Part shown: positions 51,067 through 56,825 of the stretch, in pieces
How the letters are laid out: each line of letters starts with the position of its first letter
How positions within the stretch are numbered: position 1 is the stretch's first letter
Assembly: GCA_003856375.1 (NCBI GenBank)
Contig: CP034120.1
Coordinates: forward strand, 1,364,001-1,428,000
Source of the DNA: Glaciecola amylolytica
GTDB lineage: Bacteria > Bacteroidota > Bacteroidia > Flavobacteriales_D > Crocinitomicaceae
DNA: 64,000 nt
Direction: 5' to 3'
The notes under the pieces: model-generated
The model's database searches: none
What the model was told of the DNA's origin: nothing
Seen by the model: the letters and a program-made list of their open reading frames with translations, nothing else
Position numbers and translations under genes: made by a program

Positions 51067-52491
51067 ATGGAACAAATTAGTGTCTTTGATATTTTCAAAA
51101 TCGGAGTAGGGCCGTCGAGCTCTCATACGATGGGACCCTGGAGAGCTGCTCAGCAGTTCATCAATCTGTATAAAATCAATCCCGGGATTAATGAAATCAA
51201 GCGAATTCATGTGGATTTGTACGGTTCATTAGCAAAAACAGGGAAAGGTCATGGAACAGATATCGCGGTTTTATTGGGATTGATGGGAGAAGATCCTGTT
51301 ACAATTGAGGTCAACACGATCAATCCGAAATTTGAAAAAATTCATCAGACCAGGACACTTGAAATTTGTGGTGAGCAAGTGATTACATTCGATCCTGTTA
51401 CAGATTTGATTTTCCATTTCGATAAATCACTTCCCGGACATCCGAATGCGCTGACTTTGACAGTTACGATGATGGATGGATTCGAGGAAGCGCATACCTA
51501 TTATTCTGTTGGAGGCGGCTTCGTGGTGAAAGAAGGAGAGGAAGGAAAAGATTCGTCCAATTCGGTACAATTGCCGTTTCCTATCGAAACAGCTGCAGAT
51601 TTGAAAAAGTACTGCGAAGAACAAAAGGTAGGAATCTCTGAAATCGTTTTGCAAAATGAACTTGCCTGGAGACCTCAGGAAGCAACCATTTCCGGATGTC
51701 TGGAGATTTGGGATGCGATGCGCGAATGCGTTTACCGTGGTGTGAATACAGAAGGAACTTTGCCCGGAGGATTGAACGTAAAGAGAAGAGCATATGAAAT
51801 GAGCCGTAGACTGTTGAACGGAATTGCCTGTAAGGATTCGAAAGATTTTATCAGGCAGATTCAGGCTACGAGCAATATTTTTCAGAACACCTTGAATTGG
51901 GTAAGCTGTTTTGCACTTTCTGTAAACGAAGAAAATGCGGCATTCGGAAGAGTGGTAACAGCGCCAACAAATGGTGCGTCGGGAGTTATTCCGGCAGTGT
52001 TGATGTATTATGTCTGTTTTGCCGGAGGAACCGAAGAGAAAGACATTATTCGGTTCATGACAGTTGCGGCTGAAATCGGAAGTATTTTCAAGAAACGCTC
52101 AACAATTTCTGCCGCGATGGGAGGATGTCAGGCTGAAATCGGAGTTTCATCCGCAATGGCTGCTGCTGCTTTAACCGAATGTTTGGGTGGAAACCCGAAT
52201 CAGGCAATGATGGCTGCTGAAATTGCTATGGAACATCATTTGGGATTGACTTGTGACCCGATCGGAGGATTGGTTCAGATTCCGTGTATTGAACGGAATA
52301 CAATGGGGGCAATCAAAGCGATTACCGCGTGCCAGCTGGCGTTACAGGGAAATCCGGATACTGCAAAAGTTTCATTGGATGGTGTGATCAAAACGATGTG
52401 GGAAACTGCTTTGGACATGAACGAAAAATACAAGGAAACTTCTGATGGCGGATTGGCAACGAATATTCCGGTGAATATTTCGGAGTGCTAA
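51067..52491 (+). CDS. sdaA: L-serine ammonia-lyase (serine dehydratase), iron-sulfur type
   Basis: 474 residues, single-chain form. The beta domain is at the N-terminus (1-165; [18 protein letters not shown] is the substrate-linked signature) and the alpha domain at about 190-474. Cys residues for the oxygen-sensitive [4Fe-4S] cluster are in [17 protein letters not shown] and QIPCIERN. The reaction is serine to pyruvate and ammonia. It lies upstream of the methionine operon but in a separate transcription unit. Confidence 0.95.
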
Positions 52492-52604
52492 CTAATTCAA
52501 AAGTTTAAAAATTCAAAATTGGTTTAATTAAGTAATAGTTTGAATACTTAAGCCATTGAACCTGATTGTTTTATTTCAATTTATCAAATTTTTTTCGAAA
52601 GAAA

Positions 52605-52637
52605 TTTGCATTTATCAATTTCTTTTAAGAATCTTTG
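52605..52637 (+). promoter_or_regulatory. Promoter of the methionine operon
   Basis: TTTG (52605-52608), 21 bases, AATCTTTG (52630-52637; one mismatch to TAnnTTTG). The transcript would start near 52644, just before the riboswitch. Confidence 0.7.
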
Positions 52638-52654
52638 CATCGTAATTCTAAGCG

Positions 52655-52785
52655 AGAATACAACTAGTTTATACAGAAGAGGCGAGAGACGGACTTTAAG
52701 ACCCTCTGGCAACCAACTTTAAGTGCTGATGATTTCTGTCAGTATTGGAAAACCGGTGCCAACTTCCGAGCGTGATACAAATTGT
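52655..52785 (+). promoter_or_regulatory. SAM-I (S-box) riboswitch
   Basis: Core conserved blocks are present in order: AGAGG-CGAGAGACGGA, CCTCTGGCAACC (52703-52714), the P3 hairpin TGCTGA/TCAGTA, and ACCGGTGCCAACTTCC (52752-52767). These are the aptamer elements of S-box riboswitches, which bind S-adenosylmethionine. The edges are approximate because P1 is imperfect. No terminator with a T-run follows, so control is probably at translation or through the downstream leader ORF. Confidence 0.85.
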
Positions 52786-52812
52786 GATCAGGCGAATATA
52801 AAAATTGTGTTT

Positions 52813-52914
52813 ATGAAAAGTGCAAAAATTTACGATCAAAACTTCAGCCCGAACCCCGGGTCAAATCCTTCATTTTCTTTCGTTAGCCAAATGTGTTGTT
52901 GTTGCTGCTGTTAA
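52813..52914 (+). CDS. Poly-cysteine leader peptide upstream of metX
   Basis: 33 codons (MKSAKIYDQNFSPN...). The last seven residues before the stop are Met and six Cys (codons TGT TGT TGT TGC TGC TGT at 52894-52911). An in-frame ATG at 52723 would start inside the riboswitch aptamer and is not used. Six Cys in a row at the very end is the pattern of a stalling leader peptide. Poly-Cys leader ORFs that sense cysteine are known from mycobacteria. Stop to metX start is 39 bases. Confidence 0.75.
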   Translation: MKSAKIYDQNFSPNPGSNPSFSFVSQMCCCCCC

Positions 52915-52952
52915 TTTTCTCAGCTCAATAGTTTTTCATTTACAACACATTT
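52889..52952 (+). promoter_or_regulatory. Leader hairpin linking the Cys codons to the metX start region
   Basis: AAATGTGTTGT (52889-52899), which spans the Met and first two Cys codons of the leader, is the exact reverse complement of ACAACACATTT (52942-52952). The latter ends one base before the metX ATG (52954). The 11-bp helix would hide the ribosome landing site, and a ribosome stalled at the Cys codons would open it. Confidence 0.75.
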
Positions 52953-52953
52953 T

Positions 52954-54000
52954 ATGTCAACAATTTATTCAAAGGCTTTGCTTTTGCAGCCAACACAGCA
53001 ATTTTTTTCGCAGAAAAGCGCATTTACCTTAGAATCGGGCAAAAAACTGTCGGAAATCTCTTTGGCGTATCAAACCTGGGGAAAACTCAATGAAGATCAG
53101 TCGAATGTGGTTTGGGTGTGTCATGCGCTCACCGGAAATCATCTTGTTCAGGAATGGTGGGACGGATTGTTTGGAACCGGAAAATGTTTCGATCCTGAAA
53201 ATTATTTTATCGTTGCGGTAAATGTTCCCGGAAGCGCTTACGGATCAACAGGTCCTTTGAGCGAAGAATTGCCTGAAAATGAGCGTTTCGATCAATTTCC
53301 CGTACTGACGATCCGCGATATGGTCAAAGGATTGGAACTGGTTCGGAAAGAACTGAAAATCGAAAAAATTCATGCTTTAATCGGAGCTTCACTGGGTGGA
53401 CAGCAAGTATTGGAATGGGCGCTTTTGATTCCGGATAAAATAGAACACATTATTCCGATTGCAACAAACCTGAAACATTCTCCCTTCGGAATTGCATTCA
53501 ATGAAGCGCAGCGAATGGCGATCGAATCCGATCCGACTTTTTTCTCAAAAACCGAACACGGTGGAAGAAACGGATTAAAAGCTGCAAGAGCAATCGGGAT
53601 GCTGAGTTACAGAACCTATGACGGTTACAAGATCACTCAAAGTGAAGAAAACGATGCGAAATTCGATGATTTCAGAGCGAATTCCTACCAACGGTATCAG
53701 GGTGAAAAACTAGCCGGACGATTCAATGCGTTCAGTTATTGGTATTTGTCCAAAGCAATGGATTCGCACAATGTTTTCAGAGACAGAGACGAAAAAGTAT
53801 TTGAGCGATGTCTCATGCCTGCTTTGGTAATTGGAATTGATTCGGATTTACTTTTCCCGATTACAGAGCAGGAAGAAATCAGCAAAATTTTGCCAAACGC
53901 TGCATTGATTAGCCTGCAGTCAGATTTTGGTCACGACGGATTTTTAGTAGAAACGGAAACATTGGCAAATCACATTAAACAATTTTTAAAAAACAATTAA
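52954..54000 (+). CDS. metX: Homoserine O-acetyltransferase
   Basis: 348 residues, alpha/beta hydrolase fold. It makes O-acetyl-homoserine (or O-succinyl; acyl choice is not readable here), the first committed step of methionine synthesis. Oxyanion region WVCHALTGNH (54-63), GSAYGSTGP, nucleophile Ser146 in IGASLGGQQ, Asp in GIDSDLLFP and His in SDFGHDGFL (near 325). First gene of metX-hom-osmC-metZ, with a 1-base gap to hom. Its expression is expected to depend on the SAM riboswitch and the poly-Cys leader. Confidence 0.95.
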   Translation: MSTIYSKALLLQPTQQFFSQKSAFTLESGKKLSEISLAYQTWGKLNEDQSNVVWVCHALTGNHLVQEWWDGLFGTGKCFDPENYFIVAVNVPGSAYGSTGPLSEELPENERFDQFPVLTIRDMVKGLELVRKELKIEKIHALIGASLGGQQVLEWALLIPDKIEHIIPIATNLKHSPFGIAFNEAQRMAIESDPTFFSKTEHGGRNGLKAARAIGMLSYRTYDGYKITQSEENDAKFDDFRANSYQRYQGEKLAGRFNAFSYWYLSKAMDSHNVFRDRDEKVFERCLMPALVIGIDSDLLFPITEQEEISKILPNAALISLQSDFGHDGFLVETETLANHIKQFLKNN

Positions 54001-54001
54001 G

Positions 54002-55249
54002 ATGAAAAAGCAACTCACAATAGGATTATTTGGTTTCGGATGTGTTGGAACCGGTTTGTATGAGGTTTTAAATAAGACAACCTTGCTTCAGGCTTCCATT
54101 AAACACATTGTCATTAAAGATTTAAGCAAAAAACGCATCATTGATCAGAGTTATTTCAGTACGGATGCAAACCGCATTTTGAATGATGAGGAAATCAATG
54201 TGGTGGTGGAATTGATCAACGACTACGAAGCGGCCTATGAAATCGTTACCAGAGCATTGAAAGCCGGAAAGCATGTGGTTTCTGCAAATAAGAAACTGAT
54301 TGCTTACTATCTGGACGAATTGGTTTCTTTAGCAAAGGAAAATAACGTGTCGTTTCTATATGAAGCATCGGTAGGTGGTTCTATTCCAATCATCCGAAAC
54401 CTGGAAGAATATTATAACAATGATTCGCTTTCGAATATCCACGGAATTGTAAACGGAACAACGAACTACATTCTCACGAAAACAAGCGAAGGTCAGTCGT
54501 TCGATGGAGCGCTGAAAACTGCTCAGGAATTGGGCTTCGCTGAATTGGATCCAACTTCAGATGTGGATGGTTTTGATGCCAAATACAAATTGGTCTTGTT
54601 GCTGAAGCACGCATTTGGCTTTACGGCAAAGCAGGATCAGGTGTGGAATTATGGAATTCGCCAGTTGAAGGATTGGGATGCGACCTATGTACGTGAAAAA
54701 GGCTTGAAGATTAAACTGTTGGCTTTCGGAACGCGAATCAACAATCAGATTGTAGGTTTTGTGGCTCCTCATTTGATTCCGGATAATCATTTTGCATTCA
54801 ATGTGGAAAATGAGTTCAATGCCGTTGTTGTGGAAGCATTGTTTTCAGACAAACAATTATTTCTTGGAAAAGGTGCAGGAAGCCATCCAACGGCAAGTGC
54901 GGTGCTTTCCGATATTTCCGCGTTGCAATTTGATTATGCATACGAGTACAAAAAATCTGCAACGGAGGAAAGTCTGAATTTTGAAACGGACTTCTCGGTA
55001 AAGGTTTACATCAGTGCAACTTCTCAGCAAAAACTCGATCAGATTGAATTCCTGGAAACGCATGAATCCTATTCCGGACAATCTCACAGTTATAAAATCG
55101 GGGTTGTTGCTTACGAAGAAATTTTAAAACAAAACTGGAACGATGCGTCTGATTATTTTCTGGCAGTGGTTCCTGATAGTGTTCAATTGGCAAAAAAATC
55201 CGACCTTAATGCTGAAAATAAAACGCATTTAATAGAGGAATTGTCATGA
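54002..55249 (+). CDS. hom: Homoserine dehydrogenase
   Basis: 415 residues. It reduces aspartate semialdehyde to homoserine, the acceptor used by MetX. NAD(P) motif IGLFGFGCVGTGLYEVL (7-23), AGKHVVSANKKL, YEASVGGSIPIIR, and the catalytic region IVNGTTNYIL ... LGFAELDPTSDVDGFDAKYKL (motif cores). No fused aspartokinase is present, so this copy is dedicated to the methionine operon. Its last bases ATGA overlap the osmC start. Confidence 0.94.
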   Translation: MKKQLTIGLFGFGCVGTGLYEVLNKTTLLQASIKHIVIKDLSKKRIIDQSYFSTDANRILNDEEINVVVELINDYEAAYEIVTRALKAGKHVVSANKKLIAYYLDELVSLAKENNVSFLYEASVGGSIPIIRNLEEYYNNDSLSNIHGIVNGTTNYILTKTSEGQSFDGALKTAQELGFAELDPTSDVDGFDAKYKLVLLLKHAFGFTAKQDQVWNYGIRQLKDWDATYVREKGLKIKLLAFGTRINNQIVGFVAPHLIPDNHFAFNVENEFNAVVVEALFSDKQLFLGKGAGSHPTASAVLSDISALQFDYAYEYKKSATEESLNFETDFSVKVYISATSQQKLDQIEFLETHESYSGQSHSYKIGVVAYEEILKQNWNDASDYFLAVVPDSVQLAKKSDLNAENKTHLIEELS

Positions 55250-55659
55250 AATTGGATTTAAAACTGGTAGAATCGCCATTCGTAATAGAAGTAAAAAATG
55301 AATCAGGTGTTTCGATTAAGATGGATGCTACCGAAAAAATCGGGGGAAAAAACAAAGGAATGCGCCCGATGGAAGTGCTTGCCAGCTCGTTGGCAGGTTG
55401 TATGTCGATCGATGTCTTACTGATTTTGCAAAAGCAGCGTCAGGAAGTTACTTTCTACGAAATAAACATCGAAGGACACAGAAAAGACGCTGTTCCTGCA
55501 GCATTTGAATCCTTTCATTTAATTTTTTCCTTTAACAAAGAAGTCGATCTGGAAAAAGCAGAAGCAGCTGTTAAATTGAGCCACGAAAAATATTGCTCCG
55601 TTTCAGCATCGCTGAATCCGCAGATCATTATAAAAACAGAAGTCAAACATCAATCATGA
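55246..55659 (+). CDS. OsmC family protein
   Basis: 137 residues. The fold and both redox Cys of OsmC/YhfA proteins are present: Cys52 in SLAGCMSID and Cys117 in HEKYCSVSAS. OsmC/Ohr proteins reduce organic peroxides with thiols, but the YhfA-like branch is uncharacterised. It lies between hom and metZ with 4-base ATGA overlaps on both sides, which points to a role tied to sulfur metabolism, for example handling reactive sulfur or thiol peroxides. That role is inference. Confidence 0.9.
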   Translation: MKLDLKLVESPFVIEVKNESGVSIKMDATEKIGGKNKGMRPMEVLASSLAGCMSIDVLLILQKQRQEVTFYEINIEGHRKDAVPAAFESFHLIFSFNKEVDLEKAEAAVKLSHEKYCSVSASLNPQIIIKTEVKHQS

Positions 55660-56825
55660 ATAATTACAGAAGCGAAACCTTAGCAATCCGAATTCAAAAT
55701 GAACGTTCTCAGGAAGCGGAACACAGTGTTCCCTTGTACCTGACTTCGAGTTATGTTTTTGATGACGCGGAACAAATGCGGGCAGCTTTTTCGGATGAAA
55801 TTGAAGCAAATATCTACTCGCGTTATTCAAATCCGAATGTAGATGAATTGCTGGAAAAGGTTTCGCGCCTGGAAGGTGGAGAAGCGGCTTGGGGAACTGC
55901 AACCGGAATGGCTGCCGTTTTCACCACGTTTGCTGCCCTGCTTCAAAACGGAGATCACATTGTTTCGTCCAAATCGGTTTTCGGGTCCACACATCAGTTG
56001 TTTGTGAACATTCTCCCGAAATGGGGAATCACAACGACCTATGTTGATGCAATTGATTACGAAGCATATGAACAGGAAATCCGGCCTGAAACGAAGATTG
56101 TTTACATTGAAACTCCTTCCAATCCGGGGCTGGACATCATTGATATCAAACGTCTGGCGGCGATTTGCAAGTCGAAAAACGTGTTGCTGGTGGTGGATAA
56201 TTGTTTTGCAACTCCGGTTTTGCAGCAGCCGCTTGTTTTGGGAGCTGATATCACCATTCATTCTGCAACCAAATATATGGACGGACAAGGACGTGTTTTG
56301 GGCGGATTGATCGTTTCGACAAAAGAAACGATTGCTAAAATTCAGGCTTTTGCTCGTCACAGCGGTCCGGCATTGTCACCGTTTAATGCGTGGATTCTTT
56401 CAAAGGCTTTGGAAACCTTGCATTTGAGAATGGAAAAACACTGCCAGCAAGCATTCGAGATTGCCAAAAGACTGGAGAAAAACGAACACGTGGATTGGGT
56501 GAAGTATCCGTTTCTAGGATCGCATCCGCAGCACGATATTGCCCGCGAACAAATGAAACACGGAGGTGGAATCGTTACCTTTCAAGTCAAAGGTGGATTG
56601 CAGGCCGGACGAAAGTTTCTGGACAGTTTGAGTTTGTTTTCACTTACTCCGAATTTGGGCGACAGCCGCAGTATTGCAACTCACCCGGCTTCCACAACAC
56701 ATAGCAAACTGAAGCAGGAAGAACGCGAAGAAGTGGGGATTTCCGATGGATTGGTTCGTTTGAGTATCGGCTTGGAACACATTGAAGATATTTGGGAGGA
56801 TTTGGAAGCAGCTTTAAAGGCTTAA
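55656..56825 (+). CDS. metZ: O-succinyl/acetylhomoserine sulfhydrylase
   Basis: 389 residues from the ATG at 55656, which overlaps the osmC stop. An open frame to 55593 inside osmC is not used. Cys/Met-metabolism PLP enzyme: RYSNPNVDELL (56-66), GTATGMAAV, ETPSNPGLDI, VVDNCFATP, and PLP lysine K206 in HSATKYMDGQGRVLGG, the MetZ-type form. It adds sulfide to activated homoserine, giving homocysteine directly. A link to cysteine status fits the leader of this operon. Confidence 0.93.
   Translation: MNNYRSETLAIRIQNERSQEAEHSVPLYLTSSYVFDDAEQMRAAFSDEIEANIYSRYSNPNVDELLEKVSRLEGGEAAWGTATGMAAVFTTFAALLQNGDHIVSSKSVFGSTHQLFVNILPKWGITTTYVDAIDYEAYEQEIRPETKIVYIETPSNPGLDIIDIKRLAAICKSKNVLLVVDNCFATPVLQQPLVLGADITIHSATKYMDGQGRVLGGLIVSTKETIAKIQAFARHSGPALSPFNAWILSKALETLHLRMEKHCQQAFEIAKRLEKNEHVDWVKYPFLGSHPQHDIAREQMKHGGGIVTFQVKGGLQAGRKFLDSLSLFSLTPNLGDSRSIATHPASTTHSKLKQEEREEVGISDGLVRLSIGLEHIEDIWEDLEAALKA

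Follow-up and report, generated by a model that had tools for sequence, protein, structure and literature searches.

The window, by which we mean the whole 64-kb stretch of DNA analysed, comes from a member of the genus Fluviicola (Crocinitomicaceae, Bacteroidota). It contains an operon of sulfur genes headed by metX, which is preceded by a leader with several recognisable parts. The features of the locus are these:

52666-52804, + strand: SAM-I (S-box) riboswitch aptamer (Rfam RF00162)
52813-52914, + strand: leader ORF of 33 codons, ending Met-Cys6-stop (translation; Cys tail in 12/12 genus loci)
52847-52861, + strand: hairpin within the leader ORF, GCCCG-AACCC-CGGGT (offset test in genus leaders)
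52889-52899, + strand: 5' arm of the helix predicted to mask the metX start, over the Met-Cys-Cys codons (sequence, inverted-repeat test, fold)
52894-52911, + strand: six Cys codons TGT TGT TGT TGC TGC TGT (sequence, translation)
52921-52929, + strand: CAGCTCAAT segment, some of which forms, with the later Cys codons, the inner part of the same predicted hairpin
52942-52952, + strand: 3' arm of the helix predicted to mask the metX start, with its end 1 nt 5' of the ATG (sequence, inverted-repeat test, fold)
52954-54000, + strand: metX, homoserine O-acyltransferase (NCBIfam TIGR01392, 332 bits, E 3.5e-99)
54002-55249, + strand: homoserine dehydrogenase (NF004976, 345 bits, above cut-off; PF00742)
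55246-55659, + strand: OsmC-like protein, in the operon (PF02566)
55593-56825, + strand: O-succinyl/acetylhomoserine sulfhydrylase-like PLP enzyme (NF006003, 527.7 bits, above cut-off)

The metX score of 332 bits falls below the TIGR01392 cut-off of 500. The true start of the sulfhydrylase-like gene probably lies downstream of 55593, since close homologues align from residue 22. An L-serine ammonia-lyase gene (51067-52491) sits just 5' of the sulfur operon. A cystathionine beta-synthase-like gene (G000:C1:1430054-1431397) is found close to the metX operon, about 2 kb past the right end of the window. Serine is also a substrate of cystathionine beta-synthase.

The aptamer is the sole Rfam match at gathering within the window, and its score (44.4 bits, E 7e-7) equals the gathering score exactly. 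A sequence-only reading of this DNA had placed an S-box aptamer upstream of metX at 52655-52785; the RF00162 match confirms its presence and moves its limits by about 10-20 nt. The leader ORF starts at 52813, 9 nt past the final aptamer position, and translates as MKSAKIYDQNFSPNPGSNPSFSFVSQMCCCCCC followed by a stop. A gap of 39 nt separates this stop from the metX ATG at 52954, with no stop/start overlap. The Met codon at 52891-52893 lies directly 5' of the Cys codons, and AAATGTGTTGT (52889-52899) and ACAACACATTT (52942-52952) are exact reverse complements. Both the 33-codon frame with its Met-Cys6-stop end and the perfect 11-bp complementarity had been described in the sequence-only reading and hold letter for letter. 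The predicted fold brings the Cys run together with both the metX start and the CAGCTCAAT segment (z -1.99; 8/200 shuffles as good). A run of at least three Cys codons with a stop directly behind it occurs once in the 64 kb, both strands included, as does an 11-nt perfect inverted repeat with a spacer of 20-49 nt, a description that the leader/metX repeat fits. When the 30 nt 5' of metX were shuffled with dinucleotides kept, a perfect helix of at least 11 pairs arose in 2/1000 cases, rising to 22/1000 with G-U pairs allowed. A simple pattern scan of 52480-53000 identified no intrinsic terminator, and Rfam identified no further RNA between aptamer and metX at this leader. Two weak Rfam matches there (E 0.16 and 4.1) belong to eukaryotic families on the opposite strand and were discarded.

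A search with the metX protein gave matches at E 1e-60 in 87 of 240 family genomes, from which the 30 best loci were retrieved. Within the genus metX is present in 12/14 genomes, the window included, and all 12 loci have the order aptamer, leader, metX with an in-frame leader and a Cys tail. The tail reads Cys6, Cys5, Cys5-Arg, Cys4 or Cys3 and is kept among loci in which the middle of the peptide drifts. Met directly precedes the Cys run in 11/12 leaders, with Met-Met-His in the twelfth (L041). Aptamers reach the RF00162 gathering score at 11/12 loci (44.4-62.2 bits); the exception is L037, whose genome (G052) has two aptamer matches at E 0.001 or better. Genus genomes G053 and G057, which have no metX match, contain only one aptamer match each.

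The sequence-only reading had proposed, as its own check, conservation of the Cys codons and of the complementarity in relatives. The Cys run passes this check at 12/12 genus loci, and a start-proximal helix of at least 11 pairs (G-U allowed) is predicted at 10/12. These ten helices comprise three unrelated sequences. In an eight-species clade the Cys region can form a helix of at most 11 pairs, G-U allowed, with the 30 nt upstream of metX; L041 has a 12-bp helix of wholly different sequence on the codons just 5' of the Cys run, and L044 an 11-pair, G-U-rich version. No convincing helix with the metX start was found at the other 2/12 genus loci, L043 and L042, where the longest have 8 and 6 pairs. 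Shuffled sequences did as well in 3-62/1000 cases at the ten loci with the helix, in 285/1000 at L043 and in 924/1000 at L042. Duplex energies compared with shuffles gave p values from 0.001 to 0.21 across the 12 loci. Within the eight-species clade the first three Cys codons are invariably TGT, and two different C-to-T changes leave the pairing intact, a G-U taking the place of a G-C in each case. Swapping the downstream regions among five groups gave no significant result (11/120 and 12/120 permutations as good), because the U/G-rich Cys codons pair with many A/C-rich regions. The predicted helix is well kept in position, and its covariation is limited, as a U/G-rich run pairs easily. Masking is itself an inference, and this step is clade-specific and statistically modest.

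Outside the genus, the Cys region pairs with the sequence that follows it better than shuffles do, at p<0.05, in 10/38 rows (median p 0.24), one locus being counted twice (L132 and L156). Seven of the ten significant rows are metY loci of the same family, and at all six family metY loci the pairing beats shuffles (p 0.003-0.017). Such pairing as a phylum-wide feature is not supported.

A further structure lies inside the leader ORF. In 10/12 genus leaders a 5-bp hairpin starts at an offset of 34 nt from the leader ATG, and in 2000 shuffled leader sets the maximum at any one offset was 2. For this test the aligned ATG was taken by hand as the start in L034 and L037; it lies 9 and 21 nt, respectively, into their longest frames. 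The stems vary by species (GCCCG/CGGGT, GACTC/GAGTC, AGCCT/AGGCT, ATCCG/CGGAT, ATCTG/CAGAT and others). Re-dealing the 3' arms among species lowered the number of pairs from 60 to a mean of 36.8, and 0/20000 deals reached 60. The stems had been hand-picked for pairing, so that 60/60 arises by construction and only the shuffled comparison counts. The folding energy of the leader interior is not unusual against shuffles (mean z -0.44, 12 leaders), and the hairpin is demonstrated by the position test only. Pacing of the ribosome and pacing of co-transcriptional folding are possible roles.

The arrangement recurs outside the genus. A scan of 84,980 species genomes for an aptamer core with four Cys codons behind it yielded 92 stretches, 80 of which were listed. 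Among the 80 listed, reading by eye identified 37 with an ATG ORF that begins 32-65 nt downstream of the first base of the core motif and has a Cys run near its stop. The Cys run ends a longer open frame in five listed loci of Saprospiraceae type, and in 12 of Hymenobacter type the in-frame ATG is either missing or late. None of the 19 listed stretches titled outside Bacteroidota has an ORF of the leader kind, and seven others also failed to qualify. The scan demands Cys codons and hence gives no measure of frequency, which comes from the protein searches. Of the best 30 family metX loci, 27 have an aptamer and three have none within 700 nt; 17 of the 27 have an ORF with at least three Cys, and two leaders end MCLACR, with two Cys. 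In a sister genus (g5, eight loci) metX itself starts 48-49 nt past the aptamer core with no leader between, and leader ATGs mostly lie 40-50 nt past the core. A search of 249 order genomes gave 15 metY loci, six with an aptamer and nine without; all six aptamer-bearing loci belong to the window's own family, and a Cys-tailed leader is present in 6/6. In the phylum search 223/296 genomes match, and 19 of the best 30 loci have an aptamer by a simple pattern. Of these 19, 11 have a Cys-tailed leader by reading and eight do not (L171 has two Cys); a scripted count gave 12, which includes L177 and L187, judged spurious, and misses the true leader of L189. The recurrence in other families of the phylum, the leader start at the gene-start position of the sister genus and the internal hairpin had all been missed by the sequence-only reading.

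In 35 ORFs with at least three Cys after metX or metY aptamers, Cys makes up 52% and Met 11% of the last ten residues, and Cys 2% of the remainder. Three of the 35 are wrong or doubtful (L042, where the wrong ORF was picked, L177 and L187). The Cys pattern varies (CCCCCC, MCCC, CCCCMCC, CMCMCCCCC, CCMMRCC). The genes behind the leaders, metX or metY-metX-hom among them, are mostly for sulfur assimilation. In L124 (Thermoflexibacter ruber) phosphoadenylyl-sulfate reductase (cysH) lies downstream of the leader, and in L068 (Hymenobacter nitidus) an amino-acid permease stands behind a less certain leader without ATG.

Several side observations concern individual loci. The g5 loci with direct metX are L046, L048, L051-L055 and L057; g5 genome G028 also has metY with an aptamer and Cys leader (L158). 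In L068, L071, L080, L085, L088 and L108 (Hymenobacter, Solirubrum) an aptamer and a Cys tail without in-frame ATG precede a gene of 480-530 aa. A hairpin with a varying stem and a conserved loop, (A)GGGCC(C), lies between the Cys leader and metY in L155-L159, and also in L099 and L114 (for example CTGAC-AGGGCCCG-GTCAG); L160 has no such hairpin, and in L155 and L156 T-rich sequence follows it. Two regular hairpins (ACACGT..ACGTGT type; the second, for example, GGATAG..CTATCC) come after the leaders of L181, L185 and L186, whose tails are rich in Cys/Met. Rfam scans of L067, L078, L092, L099, L114 and L132 gave the SAM aptamer only, plus one tRNA elsewhere in L092.

A control set was formed from the genome's other SAM aptamer (L001) and the 29 best-scoring family aptamers, all of which precede one gene family. 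This we take to be methionine synthase (metH), from its start ILILDGAMGTM. An ORF with at least three Cys follows 0/30 of the metH aptamers. The gene starts within 80 nt in 21/30, and only nine leave more room. Where there is room, a Cys leader is present at 33/44 metX/metY loci vs 0/9 metH loci (Fisher p 4e-5, a rough value as the loci are related). Another aptamer (L008) precedes a PLP enzyme and is followed, read by eye, by a plain terminator-like hairpin. By comparison of these loci, the Cys leader accompanies sulfur incorporation and not SAM control generally.

The window's genome has no recognisable serine acetyltransferase (CysE), the best match scoring 38 bits against a cut-off of 210.65, and no recognisable separate cysteine synthase. 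The cystathionine beta-synthase model, which matches cysteine synthases too, gives one match only in this genome; it matches in all 14 control genomes without ever passing its cut-off. The one matching protein, of 453 aa and encoded by the gene about 2 kb past the window, scores best as cystathionine beta-synthase (491 bits, just below the cut-off of 510), with 466 bits as cysteate synthase and 371 or less as cysteine synthases. An enzyme of cystathionine gamma-synthase/lyase type is also present. As neither CysE nor a separate cysteine synthase is recognisable, yet cystathionine beta-synthase is, the cell's cysteine probably derives from this operon's product, homocysteine, or from uptake. 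With homocysteine as the cysteine source, SAM and cysteine would be two end products, each with a sensor on the leader.

A CysE-like match of at least 150 bits occurs in 10/36 leader genomes vs 14/22 others (Fisher p 0.013). The threshold was chosen after the scores were known, the genomes are related, and none of the 58 has a match at the curated cut-off. The comparison omits 6/28 non-leader genomes of the two metY searches (those behind L168, L169, L171, L177, L187 and L197) and does not extend to genomes of the family that have metX without a leader. CysE-like genes do occur in some leader genomes, for example G056 of the genus. A link between the leader and absence of CysE-like genes is no more than a hint.

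Parts of this leader resemble known systems. In ermC-type attenuators the start of the downstream gene is masked until a drug-induced stall of the ribosome on the leader codons frees it. The metX leader meets their criterion of base pairing between leader codons and the start region of the following gene (11-bp helix; 10/12 genus loci) and differs in that amino-acid starvation is proposed as the cause of the stall. The criterion of trp/his-type attenuators, an intrinsic terminator between leader and gene, is not met in the pattern scan. Those for SAM-I are, with RF00162 at gathering and a position upstream of metX-hom-sulfhydrylase genes; SAM binding is inferred.

The published systems that follow are described from abstracts or passages of the papers cited. 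Cys-run leader ORFs occur before cys operons in Mycobacterium and P. acnes and before cbs in B. longum; they are likewise short, with a Cys run near the stop, before sulfur genes, and differ in belonging to another phylum, with no riboswitch mentioned in those passages and no conserved hairpin found (PMC1262725). The criterion of a polycysteine leader, a conserved short ORF with a Cys run at its stop before sulfur genes, is met at metX. Going by the title of Canestrari 2020, mycobacterial Cys-run ORFs are reportedly leaderless. The metX leader ORF is not, as it follows a 139-nt aptamer, and it is therefore not classed as the mycobacterial form. In M. tuberculosis, ppe2 and metE have B12 riboswitches with uORFs, and there too a riboswitch-controlled translated uORF alters expression of the next gene (PMC11260477). 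The ppe2 system differs in its B12 ligand and in a uORF that works mainly by termination-reinitiation with stop/start overlap rather than by sensing an amino acid; the metX leader instead combines a Cys run with a start-proximal helix and 39 nt between stop and start. A uORF start close behind the aptamer (9 nt) meets one criterion of the ppe2 type; stop/start overlap, the other, is not met.

A Xanthomonas SAM-I riboswitch also senses uncharged initiator tRNA, and so combines SAM-I with a second amino-acid-supply input, mainly at the level of translation (PMC7270179). It differs in that its expression platform binds tRNA directly, for methionine, and a leader peptide goes unmentioned in the abstract. 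Bacillus clausii metE has tandem SAM-I and AdoCbl riboswitches, again one methionine leader with two inputs; there both inputs are aptamers, which independently control transcription termination (PMC2258182). The uORFC-8-2 motif before cysS in Rhodobacterales places tandem Cys codons of an upstream ORF within a stem, and differs in having two Cys codons, a proposed transcriptional read-through and, in the passages drawn on, no mention of a riboswitch (PMC8632094). For flavobacteria, clues to leader-peptide attenuation before amino-acid operons are reported in general terms, and leaders of this locus type could be among those listed in the supplement (PMC9723704). In Bacteroides, short ORFs were noted in long 5' UTRs (PMC7366714). 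Among the papers listed in searches of the open-licence literature, none describes a SAM riboswitch combined with a Cys leader, which is weak evidence of absence.

We propose that the operon, which would make homocysteine, the branch point to methionine/SAM and to cysteine, is controlled by a two-sensor leader RNA. The proposal builds on the observed anatomy and conservation of the leader, on the position and covariation of its internal hairpin and on its association with sulfur-incorporating genes. The 3' strand of P1 of the SAM-I aptamer lies just 5' of the leader ATG, and SAM would close the leader start region, just as it would close off the gene start at loci with metX directly behind the aptamer. 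In SAM-I switches that hide the ribosome site directly, the site is in the 3' side of P1, according to PMC2258182. Because of this statement, and because the leader ATG occupies the position of the g5 gene ATG, we lean slightly towards an action of the aptamer on leader initiation. At low SAM, ribosomes would enter the leader and pass the internal hairpin. Scarce Cys-tRNA, and perhaps Met-tRNA too, would stall them on the Met-Cys6 codons, covering the 5' arm; the stalled ribosome would keep the helix with the metX start open and metX would be translated. With ample cysteine, or an untranslated leader, the helix would close. An ordinary ribosome footprint implies that a ribosome waiting at any of the six Cys codons covers most of the 5' arm. 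One waiting at the stop still covers part of it, and the difference between stalled and finished ribosomes may be weak.

That the leader reads its Cys codons we hold to be very probable, in the absence of expression data. Unmasking of the metX start by stalling in this genus is backed only a little above even. The model as a whole, in which SAM gates ribosome entry and Cys-tRNA shortage stalls the ribosome and frees metX, seems to us reasonably probable; SAM binding, the effect of SAM on leader initiation, stalling and unmasking are all inferred. It lacks expression, stalling and ligand data, and the aptamer stands exactly at the gathering cut-off. The sequence-only interpretation, that low cysteine stalls ribosomes and uncovers metX on a transcript that also senses SAM, is supported, with no data showing an expression response to cysteine or SAM.

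The same sensors could act by transcription attenuation and not by masking of the metX start, for example through Rho when untranslated leader RNA is exposed. Such a mechanism would suit the finding that, outside the family, the Cys region does not generally pair with what lies downstream (10/38 rows at p<0.05), the terminator-like hairpins followed by T-rich sequence seen by eye in some metY-type leaders (L155, L156), and the suggestion of Rho for mycobacterial Cys leaders in PMC1262725. It is harder to reconcile with the window leader, where the pattern scan gave no intrinsic terminator, and with the helix at the metX start in 10/12 genus loci, and we regard it as possible but unlikely. The poly-Cys nascent peptide might instead sense metal, sulfide or redox state, its codons not being the point. 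Long unbroken Cys runs could bind metals, and metal-responsive Cys-rich upstream ORFs exist in other bacteria. Against this, the freely varying Cys pattern suits codon counting better than a defined motif and the downstream genes are mostly for sulfur assimilation, which leaves peptide sensing improbable.

Selection could also act on the TGTTGTTGT stretch solely because, as an RNA arm, it is complementary to the metX start, and its reading as Cys would then be a by-product. An arm would require the TGT found at all first three Cys codons in the eight-species clade; however, the Cys run extends past the arm, its frame is kept in 12/12, and the Cys run persists at loci that lack the helix or have it on other codons (L041, L042, L043), as it does in leaders that use TGC. 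We consider this explanation more improbable still. Chance or an annotation artefact, for which only the marginal aptamer score can be cited, is barely credible for an arrangement that is unique in 64 kb and recurs in other genera and families. A chance origin of the Cys tail and the inverted repeat was rejected, each being unique in that length.

The preferred reading remains the two-sensor leader. Its pairing of aptamer and Cys leader is kept in relatives, which suggests one mRNA sensing methionine-side and cysteine-side supply. On whether a serial two-sensor leader, with a riboswitch that admits ribosomes and an ORF that reads charged tRNA-Cys, constitutes a widespread Bacteroidota class, we are evenly divided. 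Riboswitches and amino-acid leader peptides are usually studied apart; here they apparently stand in series, the riboswitch before the sensor ORF, in a phylum with little-studied leader-peptide control. A Cys/Met-tailed ORF of 20-50 codons between riboswitch and gene, easily overlooked by annotation, provides a search target. If such a class exists, one transcript would weigh both homocysteine end products, SAM and cysteine, in bacteria among which at least the present one appears to make cysteine by reverse transsulfuration. Homocysteine derived from metX, as the likely source of cysteine, offers a reason, open to testing, why a methionine operon would be under cysteine control.
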